Both the position numbers and the translations under genes were made by a program. Below, one piece after another: positions 56,758 to 64,000 of a stretch of 64,000 nt of DNA. The stretch covers positions 166,317-230,316 of the forward strand of contig PUQB01000363.1 in the NCBI GenBank assembly GCA_003024785.1, given 5' to 3'. This DNA comes from Selaginella tamariscina. Taxonomy: Eukaryota > Streptophyta > Lycopodiopsida > Selaginellales > Selaginellaceae. Within the stretch, counting starts at the first letter, position 1. Each line of letters opens with the position of its first letter. The notes below the pieces were generated by a model. It saw only the letters and a list, made by a program, of their open reading frames with translations. It was not told the DNA's origin and searched no databases.

Positions 56758-57046
56758 CATGCACGTTGTAACTAAAGTGGGCATGATACGTGAAAATGGG
56801 AATATAAAATAAATTACTAATTAATACTTAAGTTTTAATTATTAATTAATCATTTAATTAATATGTAATTAAGCCTTAAATATTAATTAATTAATTAATT
56901 AATCCTTCAATAACCTTACTTAGTAAGGAATATTCCTAAAATATCTTAGAATATTCATATTATTCTAAAAATAGTTTACAATAATGAAGAAATACTATCA
57001 AACATAATTACAAATGAAATCATTTTCTTATCAACATGTTAATTTT
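56758..57046. other. AT-rich border between retrotransposon nest and genes
   Basis: Contains TTAATTAATTAATTAATTAA-type repeats (about 56880-56905). It probably includes the 3' untranslated region of the gene that ends at 57047. Nothing else was seen. Confidence 0.5.
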
Positions 57047-58290
57047 TTATAAATACTTTCTTTCTATCATACAAAGAAATCTTTTCATTTTGTCTAAATC
57101 ATCACTCTCCGGATTAATCAAATCATTTTGGTCAATATCTTGATGTTGTTGCCACCACTTAACACTCTCACGAATGCAATTGGGAGTTGCCATCCTTGTT
57201 AATACATAAGATGTGATAAGAGAAGGTCTGCATAAAGGCTCATCTAAAAACTGACGTTCCTTAAGAATAATATTATAAAGCGCCCGGTTGCTATCCTTCA
57301 TTTTATAAAATTCAATATCACGAGAAAGAAAAGCTTCAGGAAATGTATGATACGGTGGATACTGCTCACAAAAATTTTCGAGATTCTTCTTTCTGAGGCA
57401 CGTATCCAAGTAGTTCACTAGCTCATCCATGATATCGATATCAGAATATGGATCGAAAGTGATTGGATGAATACAAGCAATGTTTTGGTTGAGCATAGCC
57501 TTCTGAGGAGAGTCGTCTACTACTAAGATATGTGCATTCTTCGTTATCCTTAAGCGACTGATCTCCCCATGAGTCCCAATTATTCTTTCATTCTTGAAGA
57601 AGTATGGCTTGCTTTCCTTTCTTATATTGTGAAATTCGAGAGGTTTATAACACATTCGCTGGTCAAAAATCCAATCTTTACGAATCACCTCTTCTGCAAC
57701 ACTACAATGTTTCTTAAGTAAACTCAACAGCGGTGTTAAGTTATGAATCTGCATGCATGACCAAATCCCCACAAGCGCACCCATCTCCTTAAGCTTTTGA
57801 AAGAGACGATCCAACCCTGGACGAAAAATAATATCATATCGAAATTTACCATGACAAGGAATGAAATCTCCTTGTTTGATTTCTGTTTTTCTATCCTCGG
57901 GCCTTTGTCGATGAAGCAGAACACCATTGACATCCAACAACACAATATGGCCATGAGTAACGTGAGATAGCGTTGCCTCTTGAATACTTTGCAAATCACT
58001 TGTTTGCTCCCTTTCACATTTATCCGTTGCCACTATTTCGTTGCCTATCCCTTCATCATTTAATTGTACATCATCCTTACAAGATTCAGATATTGCATGC
58101 GCTGAAGAAATTGATTTCGGAACTGAAGCCAATAAAAATGATGATGCAAAAACTGAAGTGGCCCCCATGGTAACGATGTTTTGAGCTGCATTATTATCCA
58201 TTTCCTGCATGAACTCTGTCATTCTGACATGTGGCACAAGAAATTGTCGCCAAACCCCTCTCTTACCTCATGGCAATGCTGAAAATCCAT
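57047..58290 (-). CDS. FCP1/NIF-type HAD-fold protein, plant DxN variant
   Basis: One uninterrupted 386-codon stretch (57047-58204) encodes an FCP1-homology (NLI-interacting-factor-like) domain. The nucleophile motif is LLDVNGVLL (DxNGV, not the canonical DxDxT/V). RPGLDRLFQKLKEMGALVGIWS and a second acidic motif VVDDSPQKAML follow. Members of this superfamily are mostly Ser/Thr phosphatases; plant paralogues with DLNGLL at this site are known to me as HAD/FCP1-like proteins, whose activity is unclear because the second Asp (acid/base) is replaced. The N-terminal ~100 residues are low-complexity and acidic. Start: either an in-frame ATG at 58237, or, preferred here, an eight-codon first exon (58267-58290, MDFQHCHE) joined over a 62-bp intron (58205-58266, GTAAGA...CATGCAG) in frame to EMDNNAAQ. 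No membrane segment or clear transit peptide was seen. Same strand as the next gene, 364 bp away. Confidence 0.8.
58205..58266 (-). other. Predicted 62-bp intron 1 of the FCP1-like gene
   Basis: Donor GAG|GTAAGA and acceptor CATGCAG|GAAATG, keeping frame. If it is not spliced, translation could start at 58237 instead. Confidence 0.5.
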
Positions 58291-58654
58291 GTTCTCAATT
58301 ATTTCATTACATCTGCAAAATGATAATTAGCTGACCTTAAAATTATCAAGGTATATTATTTACCTTGTTAATGTGTGACCCATGTTTGAACTAAAAGCTT
58401 CATTAATCCTTGAGAATTTATTTTCTGTACAAATATAAAAGAAATATACAAAAATGCCTTATGTTACACTCATTTACAACTATTCATCACTCTATCAATT
58501 CATTATCAATTCTTCTTCGCTATTACCTTCTGAATGAGGCGAAGAAGGTCTAAGCCGCTTGTGAGATGGTTCAAGATCTTCTGCATCTTCTATTGATGTT
58601 TCCATGGGTCCTGGAGTGTGCGAATGTTCTGTACTCCTCGAGATAACTTCCGGT
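58291..58654. other. Spacer between the two host genes
   Basis: Holds the 5' leader of the FCP1-like gene, including an acceptor-like TTTTGCAG about 20 bases before its first exon. On the minus strand a short coding-like stretch (58495-58700) has an acidic tail and a nuclear-signal-like KRLRPSS. It could be an alternative C-terminal exon of the upstream gene, but the intron needed would be only about 43 bp, so this is doubtful. Confidence 0.4.
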
Positions 58655-61593
58655 CTAATATCTGATTTGTTCGTTCTCAGACTCCGAGATTGAACCAGAT
58701 TCACCTTCAGAGCTATCGCACTTATCTGGAGGGAACTTTCTCAAATACGCCTTTATGGAATCGTTGGGGTACTCAGTTGAGACCCAATCTATCCACTTGT
58801 TCAGGTCCTCAACCATGGTCTTATCCTTCTCAACGGCAAACACACATGTATGCCGAAGGTAACACTCCTTCAAGACGGACCCCCTAGTGCAGTAGTCAAA
58901 AACCCACGCATCACTGTGAGGACCCCTGATCAAGTTGACGATGCTCCGTGCCGCTTGACTTGTAATGTTTGGATAACGTACATTGCCGAATACGTCACTC
59001 ATACCTATCGGTGTATCGGATGGAGGTTCAGGGCCGTTGGAGTGCAAACAGATGCCTGGCCAGTCATTTGGAAGCTTGAAATTGTTTGGCGCATTCCTAA
59101 CAACCAAGTGAACAACAGTATCAATGCACTTGGGATTAGCATCGTTCATATAAAATCCTGTCCAACGATGTCTATTCTTCTTGGCGAAGGCGAAGGCAAA
59201 AGTATCGGTGACATGAGCAAGAATCAAGAAATAAATACCTGAAAAAGTAGGTATCAGTGAAGAGCGCAAGCATGAATTCAATAATAAATACCTTCTATGT
59301 ATATGCTTGCACGGCTAAGTTTCTCCACCAGATCCTCTAGTGCCCTATCTGTCGAAAGATTTTTTGACACCCGCCGATCCATCACGAACAATTGAAACGG
59401 TTTCCTACAAGCAGTGATGTTACCCCATAAAGTCTCCGAATCTAACAACAAACATCTGTAGGGCTTGTCGTGATTCGTAGCATCCTCCTTTATAAGGTTC
59501 AATTCGGTTCTCCGCTGCTGAAGGACTGCCATAAGAGAAGGCGTCATCCCAATGTTCTCCTTTTTGGCGTTGGCGTGCAATAGATTCTTGCCTAGATCTT
59601 CCGATTGGTTCACCCATTCGACAAGCATATCATCGTTCGTCACATGCAAATATTTGCTAACCTCTTCATATGTTGAAGTCGAGGTCCAACCCAGTTTGTG
59701 GCAGTGTATTCCCAACCACTCCTTGAAATGCCTGACCGTCTTCAACTCCATTGCCTTGAGATGAAAAGGAGAGGTTGGGCTGCTGTTATTATTTGTAGTT
59801 TGCCATCGATCACCAAATCAGCCAAGACTTCCATCTCCTCCATCGTTGTTCCATTTAAAGGCTTCAACCATGTGAGCTTGAAATCGTTGTCTACATCCTT
59901 TGTAGATTGAACAGACTTAGCCTTCGGCGTCTTACTGGGTTTCTTTGCAGACTTTTCTGAGGGCTCCCCTTCACTTGTCTGCTTCTTCTTCAGTGTTCCT
60001 TTTGAAAAGGATTCCATAATCCCCAACCATTTGGCAAAGATCCTATCTTCGGGGCAAGAAATCAACATCATCAGAAATGATGTTTCCTTCCCGCCCACCT
60101 GGGCAAAATCAACTGCTGCAATTTCTTCAACTCTCTGAGGAAAAAGACAGATTAATATACCGGCGAGATAAATCCCGCCCAAACAATTTGCTTACCCGGT
60201 ATTCCGCTGTGTATTCCCTGCGGTAGCTCTTTGTGGTCGCTGAAGAGATTCCCACACGGCTCGCGTGTGTTTAAACTTCTCCCATATTTTGCTGTTGTAG
60301 TGGTTGGTGTCGGCAGCGTCCCATTCCGCCGATAACTTATGGTACTGCTCGATTGTGAGATTCGGCTTAGCTAAAAACGCCGATCTTTTTGTCAGCTTCT
60401 CACGGGTATGCTCGGAAAGTTTTGTTGCCATCGTTCCTTTGTTGTGTTCTTCGAGAAGTCGTTGGGCTGCCGTTATTGTGTGCTGGCCACTAATGATGTA
60501 GTACTTGATAGATCTTTTATTCTCCGTCTGAATCTTCATGAGTTGTTCTGGTGTTGTGATCCAGACTTTGTCAGCACCCTTCCTTCTTTCATAGTATGGA
60601 CACAAAACAGCATTATGTGGAACGGTATAAGAATTGTCGTCCTTCATCTTCTCCATGAGCTCAGCTACACGTTCCTGGTTGAGTGGCCTGTAATTGAAGT
60701 TTGGGTTGACGCTGCAATATTTAACCCTACAAGGATAAATCTTATCATCCAACATCATTTCCTTGTGACTTATTGCAGCATGAGATGCCACAGGTGCAGC
60801 TGACAAAACGATTGATGATTTTCTTTTGCGATCCGAATCAACATGTGTGATCCCCGACTGCAGCTGTTCTAGTGTTCTCGGCACACTGCTCCAGCTCCCG
60901 AAGCTTCCTAAGCAAATTGAACGTGATCTGTAGAGAACCTGAGACCGAGCCACCTTCTCAATCTCCCTTATGATGTCGCTGTGTTCTTCTTCAATGTCAA
61001 GAGGGAAGATTGCTCCACTTGCTGATTTTCTGTATTGTGAAACAATATCTCCTGACAATACACCTACTCGATGAGTCTGAAGATCTTCGAAGTAGACATC
61101 CAGATGGATCCCCTCCATAGATGGGCTTTCGTTGAGTTGAAGAAGAACTCCAAGGTCAACATCATTAGTGAACACGTGAACGTCATTATCCACAAGTCGA
61201 CAAAACCACCCGAGATTAATGTTGTAACTGACGACCTCTGGATCCGAGAACGTGACATTGGATGGAACAAGGCATATCTGTCGAGCATCGTCCAATCTGG
61301 GTTCGCAGCCTGCTTTCGGGTGCTTGACTAGCGAATCAACTTTCCATTGTTTTGCTTGTCCATGAGATGTGACAGAGGTTAATTTGACAGCAGCCATGGT
61401 TGCTCCAATGCGCTTCCCATTTATCTTAAAATATGGCCAAGTTGATTCCAGAATCCCCCTGCCCATCTCTTCTCCTGCTCTTGTCTTTAATGTCACCTCA
61501 ATTCCACATCTGAATACAAAAATGATTAGTTCAAGTATCCGAGTATAACAGATTTTATTTTAATTCTTACCCAGAATTTGACGACGACTCCAT
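58655..61593 (-). CDS. ParB/sulfiredoxin-like plus degenerate DNA-methyltransferase-like fusion protein
   Basis: Five exons predicted from splice signals and frame: 61571-61593, 60196-61509, 59814-60132, 59292-59754, 58655-59238. Together they give 2703 bases, an uninterrupted 900-residue protein. Introns are 61, 63, 59 and 53 bp. Residues about 276-360 resemble the ParB/Srx fold: NYRPLNQERVAELMEKM, then YYIISGQHTITAAQRL in place of the ParB GERR / Srx GxHR box. A lysine-rich linker (about 490-525) may be a nuclear signal. The C-terminal third resembles a beta-class N6/N4 DNA methyltransferase: FQLFVMDRRVSK where DPPY would lie, and SIVNLIRGPHSDAWVFDYCT, with a degenerate SAM motif (DYCTRGSV, about 818) in place of DPFxGSGT, ending in FAVEKD. 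ParB-methylase fusions are common in phages and bacteria. Key residues look lost, so DNA or cofactor binding is more likely than catalysis. The acidic Ser-rich tail ends at 58655. The exon at 61571 extends in frame upstream of the ATG to 61632, so an earlier exon is possible. Domain calls are by eye. Confidence 0.6.
60133..60195 (-). other. Intron 2 of the ParB-like gene, carrying an array-type palindrome
   Basis: 63 bp, donor CCGG|GTAAGC. The acceptor is a tandem CAGAGAG; only the second AG keeps the reading frame. It contains the 18-mer GGCGAGATAAATCCCGCC at 60162-60179. Confidence 0.65.
60162..60179. promoter_or_regulatory. Intronic copy of the array palindrome
   Basis: GGCGAGATAAATCCCGCC is identical to the array copy at 63188-63205 and differs at two bases from the perfect palindrome GGCGGGATTAATCCCGCC. 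It lies 1.7 kb from the nearest array unit, inside the transcript of the neighbouring gene. Confidence 0.75.
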
Positions 61594-61735
61594 ACTAATG
61601 ACTCGATCTCCTTGTTTGATCAAATCGTCCTTCTGCAAAATAATACACTATAAATATAAATTATATAAAAACGCACACACACTTGTATAAACCCGAATAT
61701 ACAAAAATAATACACAGAGAGAAGTAGACGTAATT
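61594..61735 (-). promoter_or_regulatory. Upstream region of the ParB-like gene
   Basis: AT-rich stretch with TATATAATTTATATTTATAG-type runs on the minus strand, followed by an acceptor-like ATTTTGCAG (61633-61640). It is therefore either a 5' intron with a further exon upstream or promoter plus leader. No clear single TATA box can be chosen. Confidence 0.4.
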
Positions 61736-61822
61736 AACTGTCCGAAGCTCACATTTGTGTTAGTGCAAAAGAAAGATAACATTTCGTTTTAGAACCACCA
61801 CAAATGTGAGCTCTGGACAGTT
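61736..61822. repeat. 24-bp inverted repeat with 39-base loop (snap-back hairpin)
   Basis: Arms 61736-61759 (AACTGTCCGAAGCTCACATT and TGTG) and 61799-61822 are complementary at 22 of 24 positions, mismatched only at two adjacent bases. The loop is AT-rich. It lies between the ParB-like gene and the palindrome array. It could be a tiny MITE, a precursor-like small-RNA hairpin or a transcription signal; no family was recognised. Confidence 0.8.
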
Positions 61823-62137
61823 TTACATAGATTCCTAGCTTTTACTCGAAATATATGAAAGATGATAAAAGTAAATAAAATGAGATATGCAACTTATATA
61901 TACTAATACACATATATATTCACATGGAATTAATCTCGCCACCCCTTCAATGCCTCCTGAAAGAGTGGGCGGGATTAATCTCGCCACCTTTCTGGAGGCC
62001 TTGAACGGGAGTGCGGAATTAATCTTGCCACCCTTCTCGGTCTCAGAGAGAACTGGGCAGGATTTATTTCTCACACCCCTTCAGTGACTCCAGAAAGGAG
62101 GCGGGATTAATCTCGCCCACCATGTAAGGGATGGTTA

Positions 62138-62267
62138 AATGAATCTCGCCACCCTTCCCAGTCCCCTCCATTGGTATGTTGTAAACCTTCTACGTCTTAG
62201 ACAGAAACGTTTGGGATTGGTCCAACTCACCAATGGAGGAAAAAGGGAAGGGTGGCGAGATTCATTC
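62138..62267. repeat. Foldback unit inside the array
   Basis: Arms 62138-62176 and 62230-62267 are largely complementary (GAATCTCGCCACCCTTCCC and ACCAATGGAGG...GGGTGGCGAGATTCATT). A related, less symmetric copy lies at 62666-62790 (shared ACCATGTAAGGGATGGT, CCTCCATTGGTAT, TTGTAAACCTTCT, CAGACAGA). Confidence 0.8.
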
Positions 62268-62288
62268 TCCAACAGGCATTGAAGACTC

Positions 62289-62646
62289 GGCGGGATTAAT
62301 CCCGCCGCCCAGGGCCTTCACTCGGTCCCTATGCGGCGGGATTAATCCCGCCGGACGCCAATTCCCTCGCGGAATCGGGCGGGATTAATCCCGCCGCCTA
62401 GGCACTTCAGCAGGCCAATGGCGGCGGGATTAATCCCGCCCGATTCCGAGCAGGGAATTGGCGTCCGGCGGGATTAATCCCGCCTCCCAGGCCCTTCACT
62501 CGGGCCTTAGTCGGCGGGATTAATCCCGCCGAACGCCAATGCCCTGTGCGAAATCTTGCGGGATTAATCCCGCCGCCTAGGCCCTTCAGGCAGGCCAATG
62601 GCGGCGGGATAAATCCCGCCCGATTCCGCGCAGGGCATGCGTACGC
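62289..62646. repeat. Two copies of a 178-bp higher-order repeat
   Basis: Four palindromes with four different spacers form one unit: 62289-62466, repeated at 62467-62646. Matching spacers are, for example, 62396-62422 and 62575-62602 (GCCTAGGC-CTTCAG...CAGGCCAATGGC). Within a unit the second and fourth spacers are reverse complements of each other. Confidence 0.85.
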
Positions 62647-63504
62647 GGCGGGATTAATCCCGCCCACCATGTAAGGGATGGTGAAATTAATCCCACCACC
62701 CTTCTCGGTTCCCTCCATTGGTATTTTGTAAACCTTCTCCGTCTCAGACAGAGTTAGTCGGGATTGATTCAACATACCAATGGGGTAATGAAGGTTCGGA
62801 GATTAATCTCGCCACCGGGTAATGAAGGTTCGGAGGCTAATCCCGCCGCCCTCTCGTAAATCATGCGCTCACACATATATATTGGCTGCGGCATTTTTGA
62901 ACAGGGATGGGTGGGGGCGGGATTAATCCCGCCGCCCAGGGAATTCACGCAGGACATGAACGGCGGGATTAATCCCGCCGCCCTCCGCGAAGGGCATGAG
63001 CGTGGGGCCGGATAATCCCGCCGTTCATGTCCTGCGTGAATTCCCTGGGCGGCGGGATTAATCCCGCCGCTCTACGACAAACCGAAGAGCGGCGGGATTA
63101 ATCCTGCCGCCCATTCCCTGTAAATGCCCTGCGCGGAATCCGGCGGGATTAATCCCGCCCATTAGAACCTTCACACAGGCCATTGCCGGCGAGATAAATC
63201 CCGCCGCATTCCGCGCAGGGCATGGATGAGCGGCGGGATTAATCCCGCCGCCGAGGCCCCTCACGCAGGCTATGGGCGGCGGGATTAATCCCGCCGCTCT
63301 TCGGTTTGTCGTAGAGCGGCGGGATTAATCCCGCCGCCCATAGCCTGCGTGAAGGGCCTCGGCGGCGGGATTAATCCCGCCGCTCACCCATGCCTGAAGG
63401 GCCTCGGCGGCGGGATTAATCCCGCCGCCATGGCCCCAACTATATAGCGGCGGGATTAATCCCGCCGCCGAGGCTATAAACCTATAGGCGGGATTAATCC
63501 CGCC

Positions 63505-64000
63505 TCGAGGCTTAGCGAGATAAAAACACACACATATATATATGTGTGTTATATATATATATATATGTATGTATGTATGTATGTATAGGAGTGTACGTGT
63601 GTGTGCAAGAGATAAATAAATAAATAAAATTATACAGTACTGGTACACCTAATATGTGTGTACATAGGTATATATATGTGTGTATATGTATATCGTGTGT
63701 ATGCGTGTGAGCGAAACAAATAAAATCATACAGATAAACCAAACACTACACAGGAGTGTGCGTGTGTGTTGCGAAAAGATAAAACTAATAAATAAATAAA
63801 ATTATACAGATAAACACACACATATATATGTGTGTATATAGATATATAATCTATAGAGAAAGAGAGAGAGTCTGTGAATATATAAGCATATATATAACTA
63901 GTGTTGTATGTATGTATATATGTATATAGGTATATATATGTGTATATGTATATTGTGTGTGTATGCGTGTGTGAGCGAAACAAATAAATCATACAGATAA
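63505..64000. repeat. Microsatellite and tandem AT-rich block
   Basis: Runs of (AC)n/(TATG)n/(GTAT)n/(AAAT)n. A segment of about 70 bp ending GCGAAACAAATAAA-TCATACAGATAA (63666-63736) recurs about 262 bp later (63928-64000), so a longer tandem unit underlies the simple repeats. No gene was seen; it runs off the window end. Confidence 0.8.

Follow-up and report, generated by a model that had tools for sequence, protein, structure and literature searches.

The dense array of palindromes near the right end of the window, by which we mean the whole 64,000-nucleotide stretch of Selaginella tamariscina DNA analysed here, makes up one half of the middle portion of a large DNA transposon, and the sequence and arrangement of the palindromes suggest that they are probably dimer-binding sites controlling the two divergent transcription units of this element. 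The repeated site, GGCGGGATTAATCCCGCC, is an 18-bp palindrome present in 18 exact copies between positions 61926 and 63504; with up to 3 mismatches allowed, there are 24 sites in this interval and 25 in the whole window, compared with a mean of 0.01 matches in dinucleotide-keeping shuffles. The array and its 18 perfect copies, as given in the preliminary description, are thus confirmed, but the figure of about 35 copies in total was somewhat high, with 29 sites recognisable at up to 5 mismatches. The spacing of about 45 bp proposed there also holds: 16 of the 28 gaps measure 44-46 bp and 21 measure 40-46 bp, and the same peak at 44-46 bp is seen across the 16 arrays that we examined. The palindromes are indeed conserved over varying spacers, with a mean pairwise identity of 0.94 for the palindromes, 0.56 for the spacers and 0.50 for shuffled spacers, a comparison that favours the palindromes because sites were picked for resembling the 18-mer and units for having spacers of 20-30 bp. 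Across 16 arrays from 10 copies of the element, the respective ranges are 0.85-0.96, 0.52-0.61 and 0.48-0.52, and the most constant palindrome positions are 7, 8, 11 and 12 (287-292 of 293 sites).

A genome-wide count (300.7 Mb) gave 27,128 exact matches to the 18-mer and none to its reversed control. Among the first 100 sites listed, all from contig C1, 86 have an exact terminal motif of the transposon family or of its older relative, facing the correct way, no more than 12 kb away (four of these sites are in the older relative L020), 13 more are in element copies recognised by homology (L013, L015), and the remaining one belongs to an older, diverged array adjoining copy B; six cluster pairs, separated by 3.0-3.8 kb, are seen among the same 100 sites. 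A form of the palindrome with one mismatch is also common (7,010 exact genome matches) and recurs at array edges. The preliminary description had linked the array to a gene or gene family and had named thousands of copies in an abundant repeat as evidence against such a link. This is largely what we find; the repeat is a 14.5-kb DNA transposon and not a satellite or MITE. The array does adjoin a gene on its 5' side, the modelled first ATG of this gene (L1) being 330 bp away, but L1 is the transposon's own and not the host's. Because the neighbouring gene belongs to the repeat, the array is not linked to a host gene, and a host gene-linked enhancer is ruled out. A simple satellite or MITE is likewise ruled out, since the arrays sit inside an element of 14.5 kb that carries coding genes. 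Outside this genome, a search of the IMG/VR viral contigs gave no relatives for the transposase alignment and one lone match to the 18-mer; the 18-mer is absent from the literature text searched, in which two papers do contain its first 12 bases.

The boundaries of the element were established by alignment of copy A, the one in the window (Table 1), with copies B and C, giving a unit that measures about 14.4 kb in copy B and 14.8 kb in copy C. The flanking blocks of the three copies are 94-99.9% identical, and the arrays and the stretch between them are more divergent. The window ends at a run of 6,251 Ns, the place at which other copies have the second (right) array, and copy A extends beyond this gap to C686:238221. 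All three copies end in imperfect 27-bp terminal inverted repeats, with the first bases altered at the left end of B and one base missing at the right end of C. The 21-base terminal core has 2,926 exact genome matches (reversed control, 0), which corresponds to about 1,460 element copies when counted by exact ends; if every copy had full length, they would make up about 21 Mb, or 7% of the genome, but not all are complete. Among nine neighbouring inward-facing pairs taken from 30 fetched ends, five show a 4-bp target-duplication match, compared with a background of 0.056 in mismatched pairs; the other four show 5 bp, 3 bp and, in two cases including copy B, none, and no duplication is seen by eye in copies A and C. 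A 4-bp target duplication is likely. Terminal inverted repeats and a likely fixed-length target-site duplication, two features of cut-and-paste DNA transposons of the DDE type, were both found. The element has probably moved recently. Single-base indels break reading frames in the otherwise near-identical copies B and C (L014, L022, L010, L024), and reflect either young decay or residual assembly error.

Table 1. Features of transposon copy A within the window
Feature	Position	Strand	Description
Copy A, in-window part	56759..64000	+	Flanking blocks 94.5-99.9% identical to copies B and C, stopping at the terminal repeats
Left terminal inverted repeat	56759..56785	+	ATGCACGTTGTAACTAAAGTGGGCATG; right end, read on the other strand, ATGCAAGTTGTAACTAAAATGGGCATG
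L2	57047..58267	-	Open frame; NLI/FCP1-type phosphatase domain PF03031, E about 1e-11, above the curated cut-off
L1, orphan gene	58655..61593	-	Exons 61593-61571, 61509-60196, 60132-59292, 59238-58655, predicted by splice signals and frame
Diverged palindrome copy	60162..60179	+	2 mismatches; in the modelled 63-bp L1 intron; also in copies B and C
Left palindrome array	61923..63504	.	29 sites of GGCGGGATTAATCCCGCC at up to 5 mismatches, 18 exact
AT/TG microsatellite stretch, start	63505..64000	.	From the sequence, plus array coordinates in other copies

In complete copies, two arrays surround the AT/TG stretch, which measures 3.0-3.6 kb in the six copies with both arrays, and are themselves flanked by two outward-facing units, namely L1 and L2 on the left (minus strand) and a DUF7869 transposase-like gene on the right (plus strand). 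Each array is upstream of a gene, the left one of L1 and the right one of the transposase, which starts 153 bp from the array end in copy B, and the sequence joining array and gene is conserved in the aligned ends (5 left, 7 right). The arrays keep this position in all the copies that were aligned. A 24-bp inverted repeat (61736-61759 / 61799-61822 in the window; 22 of 24 positions match) is found between L1 and the array, its right arm (61799-61822) being conserved in five aligned copies. The number of sites per array varies from 13 to 30 on the left and from 14 to 18 on the right. Of the 277 spacers in the 16 arrays from 10 copies, the 238 with a length of 10-40 bp were clustered; they yielded 39 clusters, just one of which is common to left and right arrays, and the left array has a higher-order period of four spacers. 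One cluster appears 15 times in each orientation, and two further clusters in copy A contain identical spacers in both orientations. Spacers are thus duplicated and inverted in palindrome-bounded segments, as the preliminary reading would have it. Owing to the symmetry of the sites, exchange between two of them can lead to the traceless deletion, duplication or inversion of a segment, and a dedicated recombinase is not needed; the approximately 27,000 identical palindromic sites are material for studying recombination at symmetric repeats.

Substitution patterns show coding selection on both L1 and the transposase: pN/pS is 0.42 for part of L1 (253 codons, eight copies) and 0.39 for the transposase exon (646 codons, eight copies). 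Stops are found in none of the eight copies of this L1 piece and in four of the eight copies of the transposase piece, that of copy B probably being only read-through into an intron. Among the best 97 copies of L1 exon 2 that were scored out of 6,521 first-look candidates, a biased sample, 90 are stop-free. In most of the scored copies the match extends to residue 431 of 434 and a longer frame follows, which makes the modelled exon 2 end of copy A uncertain, and near position 59790 copy A is without one L1 base that B and C have. A Pfam search with the L1 translation, run with HMMER's filters, gave no match at E values up to 10; Pfam, NCBIfam and PHROGs searches of L1 or its pieces revealed no DNA-binding domain, and two protein searches requiring shared 5-residue words returned no homologues at E 0.001. 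A ParB-like or methyltransferase-like identity of L1, considered on account of two short motifs, was unsupported in Pfam, NCBIfam, PHROGs and PDB sequence searches, and a single-sequence structure model of an L1 exon was unusable (pLDDT 32). The L2 phosphatase gene was possibly captured from the host. The right gene of copy B encodes a DUF7869 (PF25273) protein and has at least one short intron, as judged from the reading frames; DUF7869 is the only domain matched in its pieces. Among 54 database relatives, none carries a name more specific than hypothetical protein, and the 15 that were aligned share the invariant motifs IIHDKMD, QxDNxxxxNKN and VGHTHxDxD. One relative (P0001) gave a sub-threshold match to the EN/SPM Transposase_23 family (19.9 bits; cut-off 21), and a structure model of one relative shows, each with a moderate score, an integrase-like core and a Tudor-like domain at the N terminus. 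A full-text literature search combining DUF7869 and transposase found no paper.

Comparison between copies, made for the 430-440 bp at the start of each array, showed roughly twofold less variation in the palindromes than in the spacers, both on the left (2.3% vs 4.5%) and on the right (5.6% vs 9.1%). The adjacent 200-bp flank varies by 2.2% and 3.9%, respectively, and among recent copies the palindromes evolve no slower than this flank. CpG transitions are rarer in the palindromes than in gene pieces, at 2 of 250 vs 15 of 438 on the left and 7 of 285 vs 14 of 430 on the right, in copies that are related and hence not independent. The overall CpG value of the array, 1.04, is high because of the palindromes; the spacers have observed/expected ratios of 0.53-0.79 (7 arrays counted), similar to those of the element's genes (0.41-0.76). 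A hypomethylated array, considered on the basis of CpG content, is unsupported once the spacers are considered separately; as the high value stems from the palindromes, nothing shows that the array escapes methylation. Older relatives retain the palindrome over other spacers, together with GGCCGGATTAATCCGGCC, a symmetric variant of it (5 of 35 sites each) that has 44 copies genome-wide. Symmetric double changes affecting positions 4 and 15 exceed the number expected under independence (8 vs 3.7, p about 0.01 for one of nine position pairs tested), and recent copies show no coupling of changes at symmetric palindrome positions. Although the common one-mismatch form, the flank-like rate between recent copies and the uncoupled changes in them speak against it, we read the palindrome as a site that is probably selected in the active lineage and decays in individual copies. 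Arrays of the same and the variant palindrome in older relatives are found at L020:1308-3637 and L022:4104-5985, with a spacing in places of 28-29 bp.

Several known systems invite comparison. The VANDAL transposons of Arabidopsis are described as carrying short motifs dense in tandem repeats in non-coding regions, including introns and the region upstream of the transposase gene; the repeats are gained and lost between copies, the motifs vary by subfamily, and the elements encode the anti-silencing protein VANC (PMC5735166, PMC10398659). The VANC21 motif has 9 bp and is arrayed in one orientation, and the string 'palindrom' is absent from the main text of PMC5735166. Like VANDAL, the present element is a plant DNA transposon with motif arrays of variable copy number in non-coding regions and a further encoded protein. 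Unlike VANDAL, however, it has no DUF1985 match in L1, its transposase contains DUF7869 and gives no MULE-type match, and its motif is an 18-bp palindrome instead of 9 bp in one orientation. Functionally, the present arrays would be closest to VANC-read arrays, albeit with a palindromic motif and in an unrelated element. En/Spm (CACTA) elements have subterminal repeats bound by TNPA. As in the present element, a plant DNA transposon there contains numerous short sites in repeated form, but the sites here are internal and their reader protein is putative; the ends here also differ from those of CACTA elements, beginning with ATGCA and showing a 3-bp match in two of nine pairs (one also a 5-bp match) vs a 4-bp match in five of nine. 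This comparison of superfamilies covered CACTA and MULE features only; 20 DDE superfamilies appear on the list in PMC9587614. Outside transposons, regularly spaced arrays of palindromic sites are known from sopC of the F plasmid, the EBV family of repeats and the baculovirus hr regions; sopC has a period of about 43 bp, close to the 44-46 bp found here. Unlike a partition array of the ParB/parS type, the present one is accompanied by no ParB family match in L1 or its pieces (Pfam, NCBIfam, PHROGs).

If the palindromes control the two transcription units, each would be bound by a homodimeric DNA-binding protein, and the serial sites would recruit this binder cooperatively, so that the element's promoters stay active, plausibly against host silencing. 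The binder would most likely be encoded by the element itself, with the orphan L1 as the first candidate; arrays would grow, shrink and flip segments when their symmetric sites recombine or induce template switching, with function preserving the site. The nearest functional parallel is the VANC-VANDAL system because of the promoter-proximal symmetric sites, the site in the modelled intron, the flux in copy number and the linked orphan gene. It is conceivable, if rather doubtful, that a lineage of large DUF7869 transposons independently evolved a VANC-like self-activation, in which an L1 dimer bound to the 18-mer at the paired central arrays would protect or reopen both promoters while palindrome-bounded flips and duplications would change the arrays fast. 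If an element protein does read the arrays, sequence-specific self-activation of transposons arose at least twice in plants, in unrelated transposons, and would be a general strategy instead of an Arabidopsis peculiarity; the mechanism could also help explain the spread of this element.

The arrays could also be explained by a host transcription factor, the element having amplified its site (homeodomain-like TAATCC or E2F-like GCGGGA) to obtain cell-specific promoter activity. The arrays are promoter-proximal, the four ATTAAT core positions are the most constant, and TTAATCC is similar to a WOX-type site and GCGGGA to an E2F half-site; we nevertheless regard this explanation as unlikely, since the full 18-bp palindrome is retained and sites of single plant factors are usually shorter than 18 bp. 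It appears improbable that the paired arrays around the AT-rich stretch serve synapsis or form an internal replication origin, for which the viral family of repeats and hr regions would be models. Two GC-rich arrays do flank a 3-kb AT/TG stretch, and a single-stranded 601-base array piece has a very stable fold (z -34 vs 20 shuffles); however, in copies B and C about 4-5 kb separate the arrays from the ends, so that they are not subterminal, and no replication gene was recognised among the portion of open frames scanned. We give as little credence to the notion that the palindromes are without function and owe their likeness solely to recombination and template switching at hairpin-forming sequence. 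The range of 13 to 30 sites in left arrays, the identical spacers in both orientations and the fact that palindromes of recent copies are no more conserved than the flank are all consistent with it, but a homogenising process should drag spacer sequence along, and the palindrome is common to left and right arrays with unrelated spacers, as well as to the older relatives.

The remainder of the window (1-56000) contains several fragments of Ty3-type retrotransposons, with RVT_1, RNase H and integrase domains, and many short tandem arrays with the units CAGGA and TATCCTGTAGGCA.
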